A stretch of DNA of 35,754 nt from Candidatus Pollutiaquabacter sp. GTDB taxonomy: Bacteria; Bacteroidota; Bacteroidia; AKYH767-A; 2013-40CM-41-45. This document shows positions 153-7,530 of this stretch, piece after piece. The notes below the pieces were generated by a model that searched no databases, was not told where the DNA came from, and was given only the letters and a program-made list of their open reading frames with translations. A program made the translations under genes and the position numbers. The stretch's first letter is position 1, and every line of letters begins with the position of its first letter. The stretch covers positions 1-35,754 of the forward strand of contig CANIAS010000024.1 in the NCBI GenBank assembly GCA_947465495.1, read 5' to 3'.

Positions 153-3100
153 ATGAGATTGAAGTTTACAACTCAGTGCTTGTTTTTTTCAATGTTCGCG
201 CTGCTTTGGTGCACATCCATCAATGCGCAACCCGGCATCGGAATCTCCTACACCGTTTCGCAGCCACAAGTGCCTCGCCCACAAATTACCAATCCAGCGG
301 TTGCCTCCTCTGTCGCCAACTCGGTGAGTACCGTGCAACGTCTGGGTGGAACGCTCACCTACGGTGGAGTCCAGTACGACGGATTCGTAGCGTGTGCTAA
401 CGGTTGGATTGCACTGGTGAAACCAGTGGCCAATGGAGGACCAGCCACCGGTTCAGCGATTGCTACCATGGTAGGATCAGCTGCCGATAACCTAGCCGCT
501 CCTTCCACTGCCACCGGTGGTGGATATCCGGTGATTGCACCGCTTTGGGATCTTTTCACCGTTTCCAACTACGGCTATAGCTTGCAAGTAAACGTGCCCG
601 GCATTGGCACCAACGTGTGGTGTATTCGTTGGTCTACCTGCACCTGGGCGGGAACTACGCCCAACACTTTCTTCCTGTTAATCAACCCAACTACTGGCAC
701 CATCCGATTTGTGTACGAAAGTGTAAACTCTGCTGTTGCTACAGGTTCTGCTTCAGTTGGTATGACCGGTTCTTGTGACGGAGATTATTATTCTTGGGCA
801 TCTACCGGCGACGCCGCCTTGACCAACGCCACTGCCGTATCTGGTAATACGGTCACTTTTGGTACTGCAGTATCGGGTGTCACAGCCGGCATGACCTTGT
901 TGAATGCTAATACAACCGCTGCCCGATTTACGATGTCGGCCGCACAAACGGTAGCGAATCAAATCACATTAACAGCTGTAACTGGCATCTCCGTTGGGAT
1001 GTACGTCTACGGTCCTAGCATCGTACCAGGAACTACTGTCACCGCAATCGTAGGTACCACCATCACACTCTCTGCAAACACTATAGGTTTAATCCCTATT
1101 GCAAACGGAATTTCAATCAGTTATTTTCCTCCCAACACCACCGTCACCAGTGTCAGCGGTAGCACCATCACATTTAACAACCCTGGAGTTGGAACGTGGA
1201 GCGCCAGCGCCGCTACATTCCGCATGGTCAGCACTGTAAAAGACAGTACCACCACCTATGCAGCTATCGGAAGCGGCACTGCCTTCCCACGACCAGGTGC
1301 ACCTGGCGTGAACTATTATCTGGACTGGACGCCTATCACACCTTGGAACGATGGATGCTCCGGAACATCACTTTCGTGCACTGGCGCTACCCCAAACCTG
1401 GGCACCATCACTGGCACTTGCACCAATACTCAGTGGAACATCGGTTCAGCTACTGCATCTACCTCTGGTAATATGTCATGCGGAGCTGCTGGTGAAAACA
1501 AAGATGTTTGGTTTACGGTAAACAAACCAGCCGGTGTTGGCAATTTCATTGTGCGTACGTCAGCGGCAACTACCGGCAATTGTGGCTCCATTAGCGGAAC
1601 TTCGGTAGAAGTATTCAGCGGCACCTGTGCGGCGCTAGTTTCTGAAGGATGTGCCACCACCAGCATTGCTGGTACCGGCACATTCGGCGAAGTAGGCATT
1701 GCTGGTAACTCCTGTTCGGCTGCAACTTACTACATCCGTGTGACAGGCGACAACAACGCAGTAGGCCGCTTCGGGATATGTTCTGTGAGTGATGTATCTG
1801 CAGGCTCTACCTGTGCAAACGCGATCAACATCAATAGCAATGGCGGATTACCATTTACGGCCAATTGCTTGAGCACTACTGGAACAGTTAACAACTACAC
1901 TAACAACGGATGTAATACCGGTTACGCAGGAGAAGATATGGTCTTCACTTACACAGTTGCTGCGACCGAGTGCGTAACACTTTCCACAACAGGAGGTACG
2001 GGTACCAATTCAGGTATTTTCGTTTTTGACGGATGTCCTGGCACAGGCACATGTATTGGCTCATCCACCAGTGCATCAACTGCGTCAACCTTGAACATCA
2101 CGTTGACACCAGGCACTTACTACTTCGTGATTGACAATTTGGTTGGCCCAATGACCAACTTCAACTTCTCTGCTACCTCTTCTGGTACTGGTCCTGTTAA
2201 CGATGACCCGACTGGAGCTGCCGCAGTAATGATTTCACCGAATTGCTTGATGGGTGTTGCAGGCACTACCTATTGTGCCAGTGCCACCAATTCTTGCGGC
2301 GCTGGATTGGCTACCACAGCTTGCGGATCGTACAACTACAACGGCGACGTATGGTACACCATCACCGTCCCTGCTACCGGCTTTGTCGACGTTCGCGTAT
2401 CTGCGGGCGCAGCTGCTCCAATTGCTTCGGACCCTGCCATGGCCTTGTACATCGGCACCTGTGGATCTTTTACAGAAGTGGCTTGTAACGACAATACCAC
2501 GGGTAATTACCCTCAAATACTTTACGGCGGTCTGATTCCTGGTTCCACGGTGTATGTTCGAGTATGGTCAAAGACTGGCACTACAGCTGGCTCTTTTAGC
2601 ATCTGCGCTACCACGTGTACAACCGCTCCAAACGATGCCTGTTATCAAGCTACAGCCTTAACGCCAGGTGCTACGTGCACCTACATTTCATCCACTACCT
2701 TCTGCGCAAACCCATCATCGGGTGTTGCAGCGCCTACCTGCGGTGGCACTGCCAACAGTGATGTTTGGTTTTCTGTGATTGTTCCTGCCAATGGTAATAT
2801 CGCTATCACAACAGCTGCGGGAACTACGGCTCCTGCGATGACGGATGCAGCGATGGCCATTTATTCTGGCTCTTGTGTCGCATTGACACAAATTGCCTGT
2901 AACACCGGATCGCCGTTTCCTACCATTTCCTTGACAGGACAGACACCGGGCGCACAATTATTCATTCGTGTTTGGCCGGAAGGAAATACGGTTGCTGGAA
3001 GCTTCCAGATTTGCGCCACTTCTACTTGTAACGCCCTGGATGAATGTACCAGTGCAGCGACACTGCCATTTTCAGCTGGCGCTACACCGACCTATTACAC

Positions 3101-6100
3101 ATTCAACAACGCGTGCGCTACCACTTCGGCAAATACGCCACTTGCATCGTGTGTAGGTACATTGGTGCGCGACATTTGGCTGACCGTTACAGTTCCAGCA
3201 GGTGCTACTCAATTGACGATTACCTGCCTTACCGGCACCATGCCTGACCCGGTTATGCAAGTTTACACGGGAACATGCGGAGCATTAACGCAATTCACCT
3301 GTAACGATGACGCAGGCCCAGGTCTTGCTCCAGAAATTTCATTGTGCAGTGTTACCGGCGGCCAAACCTTATACATCCGTATGTTCCCATATGGAGGCGG
3401 TACGGATGGAGCATTCCAGATTGCAGCTTTCAACCCTGCGATTACGCTACCAAATCCGTATCAGAATGACGACCCATGTACCTTGGGTTCTACCAACGTT
3501 CCACTCTTCCCGGTAACCGTTGGTTGTCAGATGACATTAATGTCTTTCCGTTGTAGTTCACCAACTACCCAATATGCGGGTATTCCTGCTCCTGTAAACT
3601 GTTCTCCAATCTATCAACCAGGATGGAGTCCTTCCAATGACATTTGGGTGCGGGTCGTAGTTCCTCCAGGAATCACCGGACTGAACTTCAATACGATGTC
3701 AGGAACCTACAACGACGACAACATGGTTGTTTATCGACCGACCAACTGTTCCACCATGGTTCAGCTAGCCTGTGACGACGAAACTGCCAGCCGTTCCACC
3801 GGTACACCTGGCTGGATGCCTTATATTTCACTGGGCGGATTAACACCCGGAGAAACGCTCTATGTACGCCATTATCCTTGGTTTGGCGGAACTTCTCAGC
3901 AAGGAGACTTCTACTTCTGCGTTGAGCCTGCTTGTTCAACCACTGTGAGTAACGACGAAGTTTGTGCGGCACTTCCATTAACAGTTAATGGCGGATGTTT
4001 GTATCAAGGCCCGTATACCAACAGCTGCGCCAGTTATAGTCCAATTACGCCCTCGCCAACCTGTGGCGCATTCGTAACTTCTGGAGCCGCTGCCAGTCGA
4101 GACGTCTGGTTTACCGTAACAGTACCAGCCGCAGGACAATTGACATTAGATGTTCAATCCATCACGGTAGCGGATGCTGCTATGGCAGTCTATTCAGCCG
4201 CCAGTTGTGCCGGACCATTCACCCAAGTAGGATGTGATGACAATTCCAGCTTGAATGCAAATATGCCTTACCTAAGTTTGACGGGGTTAACGCCTGGGGC
4301 TACACTCTATGTTCGAGTATGGGCTAAGAACGGTGCCAGTGGCCAATTTAATATATGCGCCACAGACCCATGTCCATTGGGCACACCACCCAATGATGAT
4401 CCTTGTAATGCTATTGCCATGACGGTTGGCACAACGTATACCGGCTATAACTCCTGTTCTACGAATACCACTGATCCTGGTATGCCTACACCTACCTACC
4501 CTTCTTGCTGGACCAGCGTAGGAAATGCAAATACCGTTTGGTACAAGTTCGTTGCGCCTTCCACATCAGTAAATATCGTGACCACACTGGGAACATTGAC
4601 GAATACTCAAATCGCCTTGTACCAGGGAAGCTTCTGCTTTTCATTGACTCCATTTGCCGGACTTTGTAACGATAACTATTTGCAGTGCGGTACATCTACC
4701 AATGCATCTCAAATCATTGCTACTGGACTTTCACCAGGTCAGACCTACTATATTATGTTGGACGGTTCAGGCAACCTCACTGGAAACTTCGGCATTACCG
4801 TCTATGACGCAAACGTTGCATTGCCTGCAACGCCACAACAAGACTGTCCTGCGGCCACGGTTATCTGTTCTCCACAAACCACCTTTAGTGCACCTGGCTT
4901 TGTTGGTTCAGGGAACTATTGCGACATGGGACCTGGTGGTACTGCATACGGTTGCGTACCTGCCACCGGAGCTCGAGAAAACAACTCGTCCTGGTTTGCC
5001 TTTACCATTGACACGACTGGCTTCCTAACCTTCGACATCTTCCCTTCCAACTCCAGCGCAAACTTCGACTGGGTATTGTGGAACATTACCGGAAGCACCT
5101 TGCCAGGAGGCGTACCGAATGGTACTGTTTGTCAGGCTATCACTGCGAATTCACAGACCATTGCTGCGTGTAACTATTCTAACCACATGAGTTTCACCAA
5201 CGGTACTACTGGTATGGGATCTCAAAGTAATTGCACCAATTGTGGTACAGCTGACTCTTCCTATTCGTTACCTCTCAGTGTAACAGCTGGTCAGACCTAC
5301 CTGATGATGATTAATAATACATCGGGGCAATCTTCTGGATTCACCATTGACTTCACCAATACACCTTGCGTACAATATGTAGCAGCCAATCCATTGAATT
5401 GGTCTGGAGGAGCAAATGCTTCATGGAACGACCCGCAGAACTGGGGAGGTTGTGGTATTCCTAGTTGTGCTGTAGGGGGTAGTTTATTACCCGGACTTAA
5501 CCAGCCTGTCATTTCAGGAACTGAAACAGTTAATAACCTCATCATCAACCCAGGCGCCTCGTTAAGTCTTGCTGCTGGTGCAACATTAAATATATGTGGC
5601 AACTTCATCAACAATGGAAGTTTTAACGCCAATGTAAATTCTACCGTACGGTTTATCGGTTCCGGCACGCAATTCATTAGTGGTAATTTCACGGGAACCA
5701 GCCGCTTTGGAAATCTGATAATTGATAAAGCAAGCACAGGTACCAATGTCACCATGAATTCCACGGTAGAAGTTGGCGGAGACTTCTCTACAGCCAATGC
5801 AACCAGTGTGCTTAATTTGAACAACAAGATTTTACGTCTCTACGGCGACTTTACCAATGCCGCTGGCAACACTACCATCATTGGTGCTGGCTCAGGAGTT
5901 GCTGGTTCAACTGTAGAGTTTGCGGGTAATACCAATCAGGTATTTACCAACAACGGCAGCAACTTGATCCTAAACAATGTCACCATCAATCAGCCTACGC
6001 CAGGCTTCACCGTTACGATTACGGCCAATGCTACCAGTAATTTGATTGTTGGAACCGGAGGCGCATTAACCCTGAATAGTGGCCGCATCATTACCGGCAC

Positions 6101-7478
6101 AGCGAACGAAGTAGTAATTCAAAACACCGCTGCAGGCGGAGCAAATTCAGGCAACAATAACAGCTATGTAGAAGGATGGATGCGTAGGTATTTTGGAACA
6201 ACACCAACCAACTACGAATTTGCTGTGGGCGATGCCCTGTACGGATACGAAAGAGCCACTTTGAATTTCACCACGGCTCCTACAACACCGTATCAATTGG
6301 TGATGCGCTTTATGCGTTGGGGCGGATCTAACCTGCCACTTGTAAATGGCGTATATCCTCCATTGGAATGTGCCAATTACGACTGGAGTGCGAAGCCCGC
6401 ACTGAACCACGGTTATTGGCATACTGTTTCCAGTACGGCTGCACCGACAGGAACCTATAACCTTGAATTGTGGAATCGTTCACAGACAAATTATACGGGT
6501 ACCACTTCATTCAGCTATCCTAATTCCGGCCAAGCCGTAACCAGTAACGTAATTCCATTTACTAATACTGCTGGACTTACAGTTGGAATGAATGTATTGT
6601 CTGCGGGAATTCCTGCAGGAGCCACTGTAACTGCGGTAACCGCCACCAATGTAACAATCAGTGTTCCTACTACGAGCCCATTGGCATTAAATGCTTATGT
6701 CTATTTCTTCACCCCAGGCGCAGCAGGTCGTTTCGACGCGCTTACTATCATGAAAGACACTACTTCTAACGGTGGTGGTGGATGGAAAATGGAAGCTCTG
6801 TGCCCGTGCAACAACACCTATCCTCCACCAAACAAGCCAAACTCCAAGCGTTATCAATACAATGCGAGTGTTTCTGGCTTCAGCAACTTTGCCACAGTTC
6901 AGTTTGGCACGCAACTTCCTATCGAGTTGATTTCCTTTACGGCTGACCAAACCAAAGATGGAAACATCTGTCAGTGGTCGACCGCTTCCGAAGACAACAA
7001 TGATTACTTTGAAGTAGAACGGAGCTACGACGGGGAGAATTTCGAATCAATTGGTAAAGTAGCTGGGTTCGGAGTAGGCACAACCACCGAAACCCACGAA
7101 TATTCATTACTGGATAAAGATCCTTGCAATGGCATTGTTTATTACCGGTTGAAACAGGTGGATATTGACATGAATTCAACCACGTCGGATGTAATTGCAT
7201 TGAATTGTATGCGCTCTAAGGACGACCTAGTGCTCTTCCCAAATCCTGCGTATGACAAGATCACCTATTCATTCTATGAGAATATCGATGGTGTTGTAGA
7301 TGTACAGTTGGTTGATATGATGGGCAAGACCGTCAAGTGGGAGCGTTATAGTGTAACCAGAGGATACAATAGCCTTCGTTCTACCATTGACGATGTAGCC
7401 GCTGGTATCTATTATCTCAAGATTGAACGCATGGATAAGACGGGCGATAGCCGAATGGTTCGCTTCACCAAGCGTTAA
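153..7478 (+). CDS. Giant multidomain secreted protein with T9SS type A sorting domain
   Basis: A 2441-residue secreted protein. A signal peptide spans residues 1-25, with cleavage likely after SINA. An N-terminal beta domain (about 26-395, ending near YYLDWTP) is split by an inserted module at about 222-357. About nine PPC-like modules of 137-156 residues follow (about 405-1745); each carries a D-V/I-W-F/Y core, a 'YSG.C..L' strand and, in most, a 'LTPG..LYVRVW' strand. Next come a beta-helix-like stretch (about 1746-2000) and a domain beginning YVEGWMRRYFG that holds a second inserted module (about 2126-2188). An FN3-like linker starts at LPIELISF (about 2256), and a type A T9SS sorting domain with FPNP and GIYYLKI ends the protein. 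The protein should cross the outer membrane by T9SS and be attached to the surface or released. I see no catalytic domain, so adhesion or matrix binding is the likeliest role (inference). It is monocistronic, with its own promoter and terminator. Confidence 0.9.
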   Translation: MRLKFTTQCLFFSMFALLWCTSINAQPGIGISYTVSQPQVPRPQITNPAVASSVANSVSTVQRLGGTLTYGGVQYDGFVACANGWIALVKPVANGGPATGSAIATMVGSAADNLAAPSTATGGGYPVIAPLWDLFTVSNYGYSLQVNVPGIGTNVWCIRWSTCTWAGTTPNTFFLLINPTTGTIRFVYESVNSAVATGSASVGMTGSCDGDYYSWASTGDAALTNATAVSGNTVTFGTAVSGVTAGMTLLNANTTAARFTMSAAQTVANQITLTAVTGISVGMYVYGPSIVPGTTVTAIVGTTITLSANTIGLIPIANGISISYFPPNTTVTSVSGSTITFNNPGVGTWSASAATFRMVSTVKDSTTTYAAIGSGTAFPRPGAPGVNYYLDWTPITPWNDGCSGTSLSCTGATPNLGTITGTCTNTQWNIGSATASTSGNMSCGAAGENKDVWFTVNKPAGVGNFIVRTSAATTGNCGSISGTSVEVFSGTCAALVSEGCATTSIAGTGTFGEVGIAGNSCSAATYYIRVTGDNNAVGRFGICSVSDVSAGSTCANAININSNGGLPFTANCLSTTGTVNNYTNNGCNTGYAGEDMVFTYTVAATECVTLSTTGGTGTNSGIFVFDGCPGTGTCIGSSTSASTASTLNITLTPGTYYFVIDNLVGPMTNFNFSATSSGTGPVNDDPTGAAAVMISPNCLMGVAGTTYCASATNSCGAGLATTACGSYNYNGDVWYTITVPATGFVDVRVSAGAAAPIASDPAMALYIGTCGSFTEVACNDNTTGNYPQILYGGLIPGSTVYVRVWSKTGTTAGSFSICATTCTTAPNDACYQATALTPGATCTYISSTTFCANPSSGVAAPTCGGTANSDVWFSVIVPANGNIAITTAAGTTAPAMTDAAMAIYSGSCVALTQIACNTGSPFPTISLTGQTPGAQLFIRVWPEGNTVAGSFQICATSTCNALDECTSAATLPFSAGATPTYYTFNNACATTSANTPLASCVGTLVRDIWLTVTVPAGATQLTITCLTGTMPDPVMQVYTGTCGALTQFTCNDDAGPGLAPEISLCSVTGGQTLYIRMFPYGGGTDGAFQIAAFNPAITLPNPYQNDDPCTLGSTNVPLFPVTVGCQMTLMSFRCSSPTTQYAGIPAPVNCSPIYQPGWSPSNDIWVRVVVPPGITGLNFNTMSGTYNDDNMVVYRPTNCSTMVQLACDDETASRSTGTPGWMPYISLGGLTPGETLYVRHYPWFGGTSQQGDFYFCVEPACSTTVSNDEVCAALPLTVNGGCLYQGPYTNSCASYSPITPSPTCGAFVTSGAAASRDVWFTVTVPAAGQLTLDVQSITVADAAMAVYSAASCAGPFTQVGCDDNSSLNANMPYLSLTGLTPGATLYVRVWAKNGASGQFNICATDPCPLGTPPNDDPCNAIAMTVGTTYTGYNSCSTNTTDPGMPTPTYPSCWTSVGNANTVWYKFVAPSTSVNIVTTLGTLTNTQIALYQGSFCFSLTPFAGLCNDNYLQCGTSTNASQIIATGLSPGQTYYIMLDGSGNLTGNFGITVYDANVALPATPQQDCPAATVICSPQTTFSAPGFVGSGNYCDMGPGGTAYGCVPATGARENNSSWFAFTIDTTGFLTFDIFPSNSSANFDWVLWNITGSTLPGGVPNGTVCQAITANSQTIAACNYSNHMSFTNGTTGMGSQSNCTNCGTADSSYSLPLSVTAGQTYLMMINNTSGQSSGFTIDFTNTPCVQYVAANPLNWSGGANASWNDPQNWGGCGIPSCAVGGSLLPGLNQPVISGTETVNNLIINPGASLSLAAGATLNICGNFINNGSFNANVNSTVRFIGSGTQFISGNFTGTSRFGNLIIDKASTGTNVTMNSTVEVGGDFSTANATSVLNLNNKILRLYGDFTNAAGNTTIIGAGSGVAGSTVEFAGNTNQVFTNNGSNLILNNVTINQPTPGFTVTITANATSNLIVGTGGALTLNSGRIITGTANEVVIQNTAAGGANSGNNNSYVEGWMRRYFGTTPTNYEFAVGDALYGYERATLNFTTAPTTPYQLVMRFMRWGGSNLPLVNGVYPPLECANYDWSAKPALNHGYWHTVSSTAAPTGTYNLELWNRSQTNYTGTTSFSYPNSGQAVTSNVIPFTNTAGLTVGMNVLSAGIPAGATVTAVTATNVTISVPTTSPLALNAYVYFFTPGAAGRFDALTIMKDTTSNGGGGWKMEALCPCNNTYPPPNKPNSKRYQYNASVSGFSNFATVQFGTQLPIELISFTADQTKDGNICQWSTASEDNNDYFEVERSYDGENFESIGKVAGFGVGTTTETHEYSLLDKDPCNGIVYYRLKQVDIDMNSTTSDVIALNCMRSKDDLVLFPNPAYDKITYSFYENIDGVVDVQLVDMMGKTVKWERYSVTRGYNSLRSTIDDVAAGIYYLKIERMDKTGDSRMVRFTKR
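816..1225 (+). repeat. Inserted Gly/Thr/Val-rich module, N-terminal copy
   Basis: This in-frame segment of about 136 residues interrupts the N-terminal domain between DGDYYSW and STVKDSTTTYAAIG. It contains two to three imperfect units of the form 'G.xVGMxV...I.PGTTVTAI.GTTITLS'. The middle unit (about 963-1065) resembles the segment at 6529-6717 of the same gene. The boundaries are judged by eye from the change in composition and are approximate. Confidence 0.55.
1350..5387 (+). repeat. Nine tandem PPC-like beta modules (protein level)
   Basis: The W of the DVWF-like core recurs near nucleotides 1506, 1935 (Val-Phe variant), 2350, 2764, 3175, 3643, 4108, 4537 and 4990, a spacing of about 137-156 residues. 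Modules 3 to 7 are the most alike, often starting 'NDDPC' or 'NDACYQA' and ending 'F.ICA'. Paired cysteines recur in each. The sequence resembles bacterial pre-peptidase C-terminal (PPC) domains; this is a family guess from pattern, not from a search. DNA identity between units is low, so the duplication is old. Confidence 0.6.
6529..6717 (+). repeat. Inserted module, C-terminal copy
   Basis: This is a stretch of about 63 residues between NLELWNRSQTNYT...SGQ and GRFDALTIMKD. It contains 'LTVGMNVLSAGIPAGATVTA', which closely parallels 'ISVGMYVYGPSIVPGTTVTA' near 1000 in the same gene. Here it sits inside a different host domain. Boundaries are approximate. Confidence 0.5.
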
Positions 7479-7500
7479 TCCATTTTCTTTCATTTCCAAA

Positions 7501-7530
7501 AGCCGTGACCACTTGGTCACGGCTTTTTTT
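7501..7530 (+). terminator. Intrinsic terminator of the giant gene
   Basis: A perfect 10-bp GC-rich stem (7501-7510 with 7515-7524), a 4-base loop ACTT, and seven Ts (7524-7530). It starts 23 bases after the stop codon and precedes yidC, so yidC needs its own promoter. Confidence 0.9.

Follow-up and report, generated by a model that had tools for sequence, protein, structure and literature searches.

Repeated in-frame capture of a small six-stranded barrel family, shared with tailed-phage virions, is the probable origin of loop insertions in exported Bacteroidota proteins

A previously undescribed family of predicted six-stranded beta-barrels, common in the virions of tailed bacteriophages, has probably been captured repeatedly, and in-frame, by exported Bacteroidota proteins at their surface loops. 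In the window, i.e. the whole stretch of 35,754 nucleotides of the Candidatus Pollutiaquabacter contig analyzed here, a giant T9SS secreted protein would have undergone this capture at two sites, and at the first of them the unit was probably inserted into another unit. What is new is that one sequence family, for which no curated model exists, is common to phage virions and Bacteroidota surface proteins, and that close relatives show both occupied and empty sites, with nesting probable in one case; phage virions were already known to contain promiscuous barrel or Ig-like insertions. Since filled and empty sites coexist within a genus, domain insertion becomes open to study almost as it happens. 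Both the effect of such an insertion on a SusD-type or T9SS protein and the origin of in-frame domain gain would thereby be made testable.

The 2441-residue protein contains the Pfam domains GBD_T9SS_assoc, PPC and Por_Secre_tail, corresponding to an architecture of galactose-binding-like repeats, a PPC domain and a T9SS sorting tail. An earlier note, made from the letters of the stretch, had claimed that two related units, at residues about 222-357 and about 2126-2188, each break a host domain. Both segments were recovered, with limits refined to residues 219-359 and about 2117-2190, and the homologues devoid of the units run straight across the two sites. Their kinship is significant: aligning residues 257-325, the inner unit of segment 1, with segment 2 gave a Smith-Waterman score of 91, reached by none of 2000 shuffles (maximum 65) and by none of 2000 host segments (maximum 55). 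When the window's own genome was searched with the first segment, only these two places matched, the second with an E-value of 3.3e-4. Within the window gene, no long DNA repeat common to the two segments and no inverted repeats bounding the units were seen.

Table. Coordinates in the window of the host gene, of its two insertions and of the parts of the first insertion
Feature	Position	Strand	Basis
Host gene, encoding the giant T9SS secreted protein of 2441 aa	153..7478	+	ORF; Pfam
First insertion (residues 219-359), following conserved GDYYSW of the N-terminal domain	807..1229	+	Orthologue and paralogue comparison
Outer unit, probable left half; placed at profile positions 3-27 from its counterpart in G002	807..920	+	Weak alone, 9.2 bits; G002 12.1 bits
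Inner complete unit, residues 257-325	921..1127	+	69.8 bits to profile A2, which includes this unit itself; independent pairwise score against unit 2
Outer unit, probable right half; placed at profile positions 34-64	1128..1229	+	23.6 bits
Second insertion, residues about 2117-2190, in the beta domain preceding the C-terminal region	6501..6722	+	Homologue comparison; AlphaFold core

The first segment consists of one whole unit flanked by two half-units. The left piece of the same-genus orthologue (L034, genome G002) aligns with profile positions 3-27 at 12.1 bits, and that of the window protein gives a weak match of 9.2 bits. Once joined, the outer halves of the window protein span profile positions 3-64 with a two-residue insert, although their joint score of 23.5 bits, obtained under a high bias correction, is not above that of the right half alone (23.6 bits). 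Profile A1 included the joined halves, which makes any match of the halves to it circular, and profile A2 excluded them. In the AlphaFold model of the whole segment (mean pLDDT 78.2, pTM 0.68), the strands follow one another in the nested order. The first insertion is thus probably one unit lodged within a loop of another; as the argument is built on complementary profile positions and a predicted strand order, nesting is likely rather than proven.

The units measure about 65-75 residues, and no Pfam or NCBIfam model was convincingly matched by the family when 22 members were scanned. In the open literature, searched by titles and beginnings of abstracts, no description of the unit in Bacteroidota was found. 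With a 7-row profile, units were detected in 17 of 42 genomes belonging to the order at E up to 0.01 and in 4 of 395 genomes belonging to the phylum at E up to 1e-4; a 22-row profile detected them in 27 of 395 genomes belonging to the class at E up to 1e-4. The window's own genome is part of each count.

As for the fold, AlphaFold predicts unit 2 to be a compact six-stranded beta-barrel (pLDDT 87.6, core about 95), and in this model the unit is apparently self-folding. Foldseek searches against the PDB returned weak E-values (best 0.015). The best VIA-align match was a phage tail tube with a Z of 8.6, at a level (8.5-8.6) barely exceeding what the tool calls common and where matches can be due to chance. 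Uba1, V-ATPase and pyruvate kinase also appeared among the fold matches, through what we take to be a common small-barrel arrangement rather than kinship. No Ig-like chain stood among the PDB fold matches listed by Foldseek and VIA-align, a result with which an Ig fold is still compatible.

Several lines of comparison connect the units with bacteriophage virion proteins, as the earlier note had suggested. First, the decoration protein of Arthrobacter phage Bridgette (8ECI) was the only PDB sequence match below E 0.1, with a profile E-value of 4.7e-4 over residues 14-73; VIA-align superposed 76 residues of its chain 1 at 25% identity with a Z of 8.5. Secondly, at E up to 0.1, 14 of 22 units matched phrog_10467, of unknown function (best 5e-10, and only 0.0055 for the window's first inner unit), and 12 of the 22 matched phrog_5838, a virion structural protein. 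By profile similarity and by predicted fold, the units can therefore be placed with the phage decoration-type module (phrog_10467 / 8ECI-like). Thirdly, scanning viral contigs yielded at least 203 relatives, of which 80 were kept, and structure searches in BFVD gave many matches to phage fibres and virion proteins, one of them at E below 0.001. Finally, a virion structural protein (phrog_11591) encoded on two viral contigs, presumably of lake origin given the sample type, contains a unit after KYLG. The phages Atu_ph07 and PA5oct encode homologues that lie near the tail sheath gene, carry the annotation of virion structural protein and lack a unit at this place; this points to an insertion on the viral side too.

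Other viral searches were negative within their scope. Tblastn of annotated phage records gave no match at E 0.1 with one window unit and none at E 0.001 with the unit consensus, the low-complexity filter, on in both searches, being a possible cause in view of the viral relatives and BFVD matches given above; these negatives are not read as absence. Single-sequence viral scans found no relative for the unit of genome G029 described below or for the window's first inner unit. Among 52 Bacteroidota units, 13 had a viral unit as best match, a count drawn from unequal pools (77 viral and 51 Bacteroidota) that does not orient the transfer between phages and bacteria. Separately, on viral contig L136, two units were seen in a phage protein of head-closure type (phrog_578, with matches over two stretches), possibly a further phage insertion.

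The earlier note had suggested that the module spread inside the gene. On this reading, one captured unit would have been copied elsewhere in the gene by unequal recombination or gene conversion. The presence of both units within one gene and the S-A-A/V-Q-like start common to several units speak for this explanation, as does the third unit of L034, which resembles unit 2 (43-47% identity). The comparison of the units themselves does not bear it out for the window. Units 1 and 2 are 31% identical, which places them at the 46th percentile of the 1326 pairs among 52 Bacteroidota units; this set was derived from 61 distinct units by removing short partial matches, with fewer than 40 aligned columns, and near-identical units, more than 80% identical to one already kept. 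Close tandem pairs in other genes (gaps of 7-13 residues) fall at the 90th-99th percentile in four cases out of five and at the 73rd in the fifth, and units 1 and 3 of L034 at the 76th. Units 1 and 2, joined by no long DNA repeat, are as alike as random family members, so that separate captures, drawn from a common pool, fit better.

The viral units presumed to come from lakes are, in addition, at least as close by identity as the units of the gene family. The best non-orthologous BLAST match of unit 2 was a viral unit (52%, 57.4 bits), followed by L034 unit 3 (56.2 bits), and unit 3 itself scored 60.1 bits with unit 2 of L033, the orthologue from another genus of the family, versus 59.7 bits (50%) with another viral unit. 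Copying between sites 1 and 2 thus finds no support, and unit 2 may have been copied into the third site of L034, a viral unit being about as close. Altogether, we regard spread inside the gene as improbable.

The distribution of empty and filled sites also speaks for capture. Relatives of the protein were collected from 80 genomes, from which 14 stretches holding 17 long ORFs were taken. The first unit is present in L034 and absent from L033, which has the second unit; L034 is the only one of nine homologues with the N-terminal domain (E below 1e-3) to carry the first insertion, also absent from the paralogues with this domain. The second insertion is lacking in all 15 other homologue ORFs having both flanks of the site. 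The L034 contig ends inside the gene, before the second-unit site. The third unit of L034, flanked by MAVY and SPPSC, sits in a galactose-binding-like domain that is uninterrupted there in the window protein and in L033. Judged by these sequence comparisons, both window units are true insertions and not old host parts. The notion of domain-level insertion rather than tandem duplication, also put forward in the earlier note, is upheld by the forms lacking each insertion and by the third insertion in L034.

If the segments had belonged to the host domains since ancient times and been lost in other lineages, the occurrence of unit 2 in two genera of the family would be in keeping with it. This reading is nevertheless very unlikely in view of the single filled site among nine for unit 1, and of unit 3 and the Omp28-like and SusD cases below, each of which takes one gain versus several losses.

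A second, different Gly/Thr-rich insertion (GSAQVISGGAGYGANATYTGVTIGGG...) was observed in a galactose-binding-like domain of L034, between 'NNQCVNFS' and 'TSGYNDVWI', and is absent from the window protein and from L033; it had no Pfam match at E 0.01 and no PHROG match at E 1e-5.

The same event was found in other bacterial hosts. An Omp28-like T9SS protein of genome G029 carries a unit in a loop where its four congeners have none, no unit being found in their Omp28-like loci. The sequences are 84-94% identical downstream of the unit and, among the three congeners listed, 79-87% identical upstream. An Omp28-like homologue in genome G032 has a unit at a different loop and none at the G029 loop. 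A SusD-family protein (by Pfam) of genome G225 likewise contains a unit that is absent in nine of nine matched congeneric proteins (61 genomes searched, 10 matched, G225 included). Moreover, 10 proteins from other genomes harbor a unit at another loop of an N-terminal domain of the window type (E 3.4e-8 for the window protein). At this hot spot, unit identity and host identity correlated with a Spearman coefficient of 0.17 (p 0.28, non-independent pairs from 10 proteins), a value that does not separate one old insertion from repeated insertions.

In-frame gains at new sites of unrelated genes, one of them within a genus, are also what would be seen if a mobile DNA element akin to Rickettsia palindromic elements or MITEs were read in-frame by chance, but this is the least probable explanation of all, as the G029 insert is single-copy in its own genome with no full copy in 40 others of the order (hence no DNA-level donor of this recent insert in 41 genomes), no inverted repeat bounds the window units, no clear target-site duplication is visible (the G029 junction offers only a short, diverged resemblance), and conservation lies at the protein level with a confidently predicted fold.

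DNA composition is equivocal as to a foreign origin. The GC3 of unit 2 is 0.324 versus 0.456 +/- 0.059 for windows along the gene, and neither the inner first unit (0.424) nor the G029 unit (0.217 versus 0.230 +/- 0.030) differs from its surroundings.

Repeated capture from other genes can be described as follows. In the model, the first and last strands stand at the two ends of a compact barrel, ends that may lie close together; such a barrel would be accommodated in a loop without disturbing the fold of the host. The captures were probably separate events of illegitimate or short-homology recombination with module-bearing genes, of phage or bacterial origin, and the copying of one unit to the other window site would not be part of this route. 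The most likely effect, by analogy, would be the addition of an exposed barrel to a surface protein, serving as a spacer or as a ligand- or glycan-contacting patch, a benefit that we infer from where the units lie, in exported proteins, and from the way phage virions employ such domains (PMC7602432). A bolder proposal, which we consider rather doubtful, is that of a self-folding, protein-level mobile module exchanged between phage virion and bacterial surface proteins and plugged into exposed loops, including its own, under selection for altered surface binding or phage recognition.

Among known systems, the Bridgette decoration protein resembles the units in profile and in fold as reported above, but it is a short phage capsid protein, whereas the window units are loop insertions in a bacterial secreted protein. 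In the LKA1 tailspike, the beta-helix is interrupted by a small barrel, termed an insertion domain by the authors in the part of their article available to us (PMC5701251), and the likeness to our units lies in this interruption of another fold. VIA-align gave a Z of 7.6 over a range holding this insertion domain; however, identity is 19%, the tailspike is absent from the sequence-profile matches and, according to the same partial text, its barrel adjoins an active site (PMC5701251).

The Ig-like domains of tailed phages are described, in the portion of the source available, as promiscuous beta domains of tail fibres and of head and decoration proteins (PMC7602432). As far as that portion goes, they are beta-sandwiches and belong to phages (PMC7602432), whereas units of the window type also occur in loops of bacterial surface proteins. 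PARCELs, finally, are a protein motif for which horizontal distribution and movement within genomes have been proposed, some of the carriers being membrane-targeted proteins (PMC2996958, from its available excerpt). As presented there, they are 25-residue tandem amphipathic repeats with palindromic DNA, whereas the present units are single barrels in which no palindrome was seen.

Three further observations were made. In genome G031, the paralogous proteins L057 and L068 contain a unit that is identical letter for letter within differing host flanks, which may reflect gene conversion or recent duplication. A unit-like insert precedes '..RIWEHA' or '..RIWEPA' in L105 (genome G563) and L109 (genome G517), two proteins that we take to resemble formylglycine-generating enzymes. 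Shortly past the stop codon of the giant gene, a perfect 14-base inverted repeat with a 2-base gap occupies window positions 7498-7527. The next gene, presumably yidC-like, is listed with a GTG start (7505) that falls within this repeat, so that its real start is probably further down.
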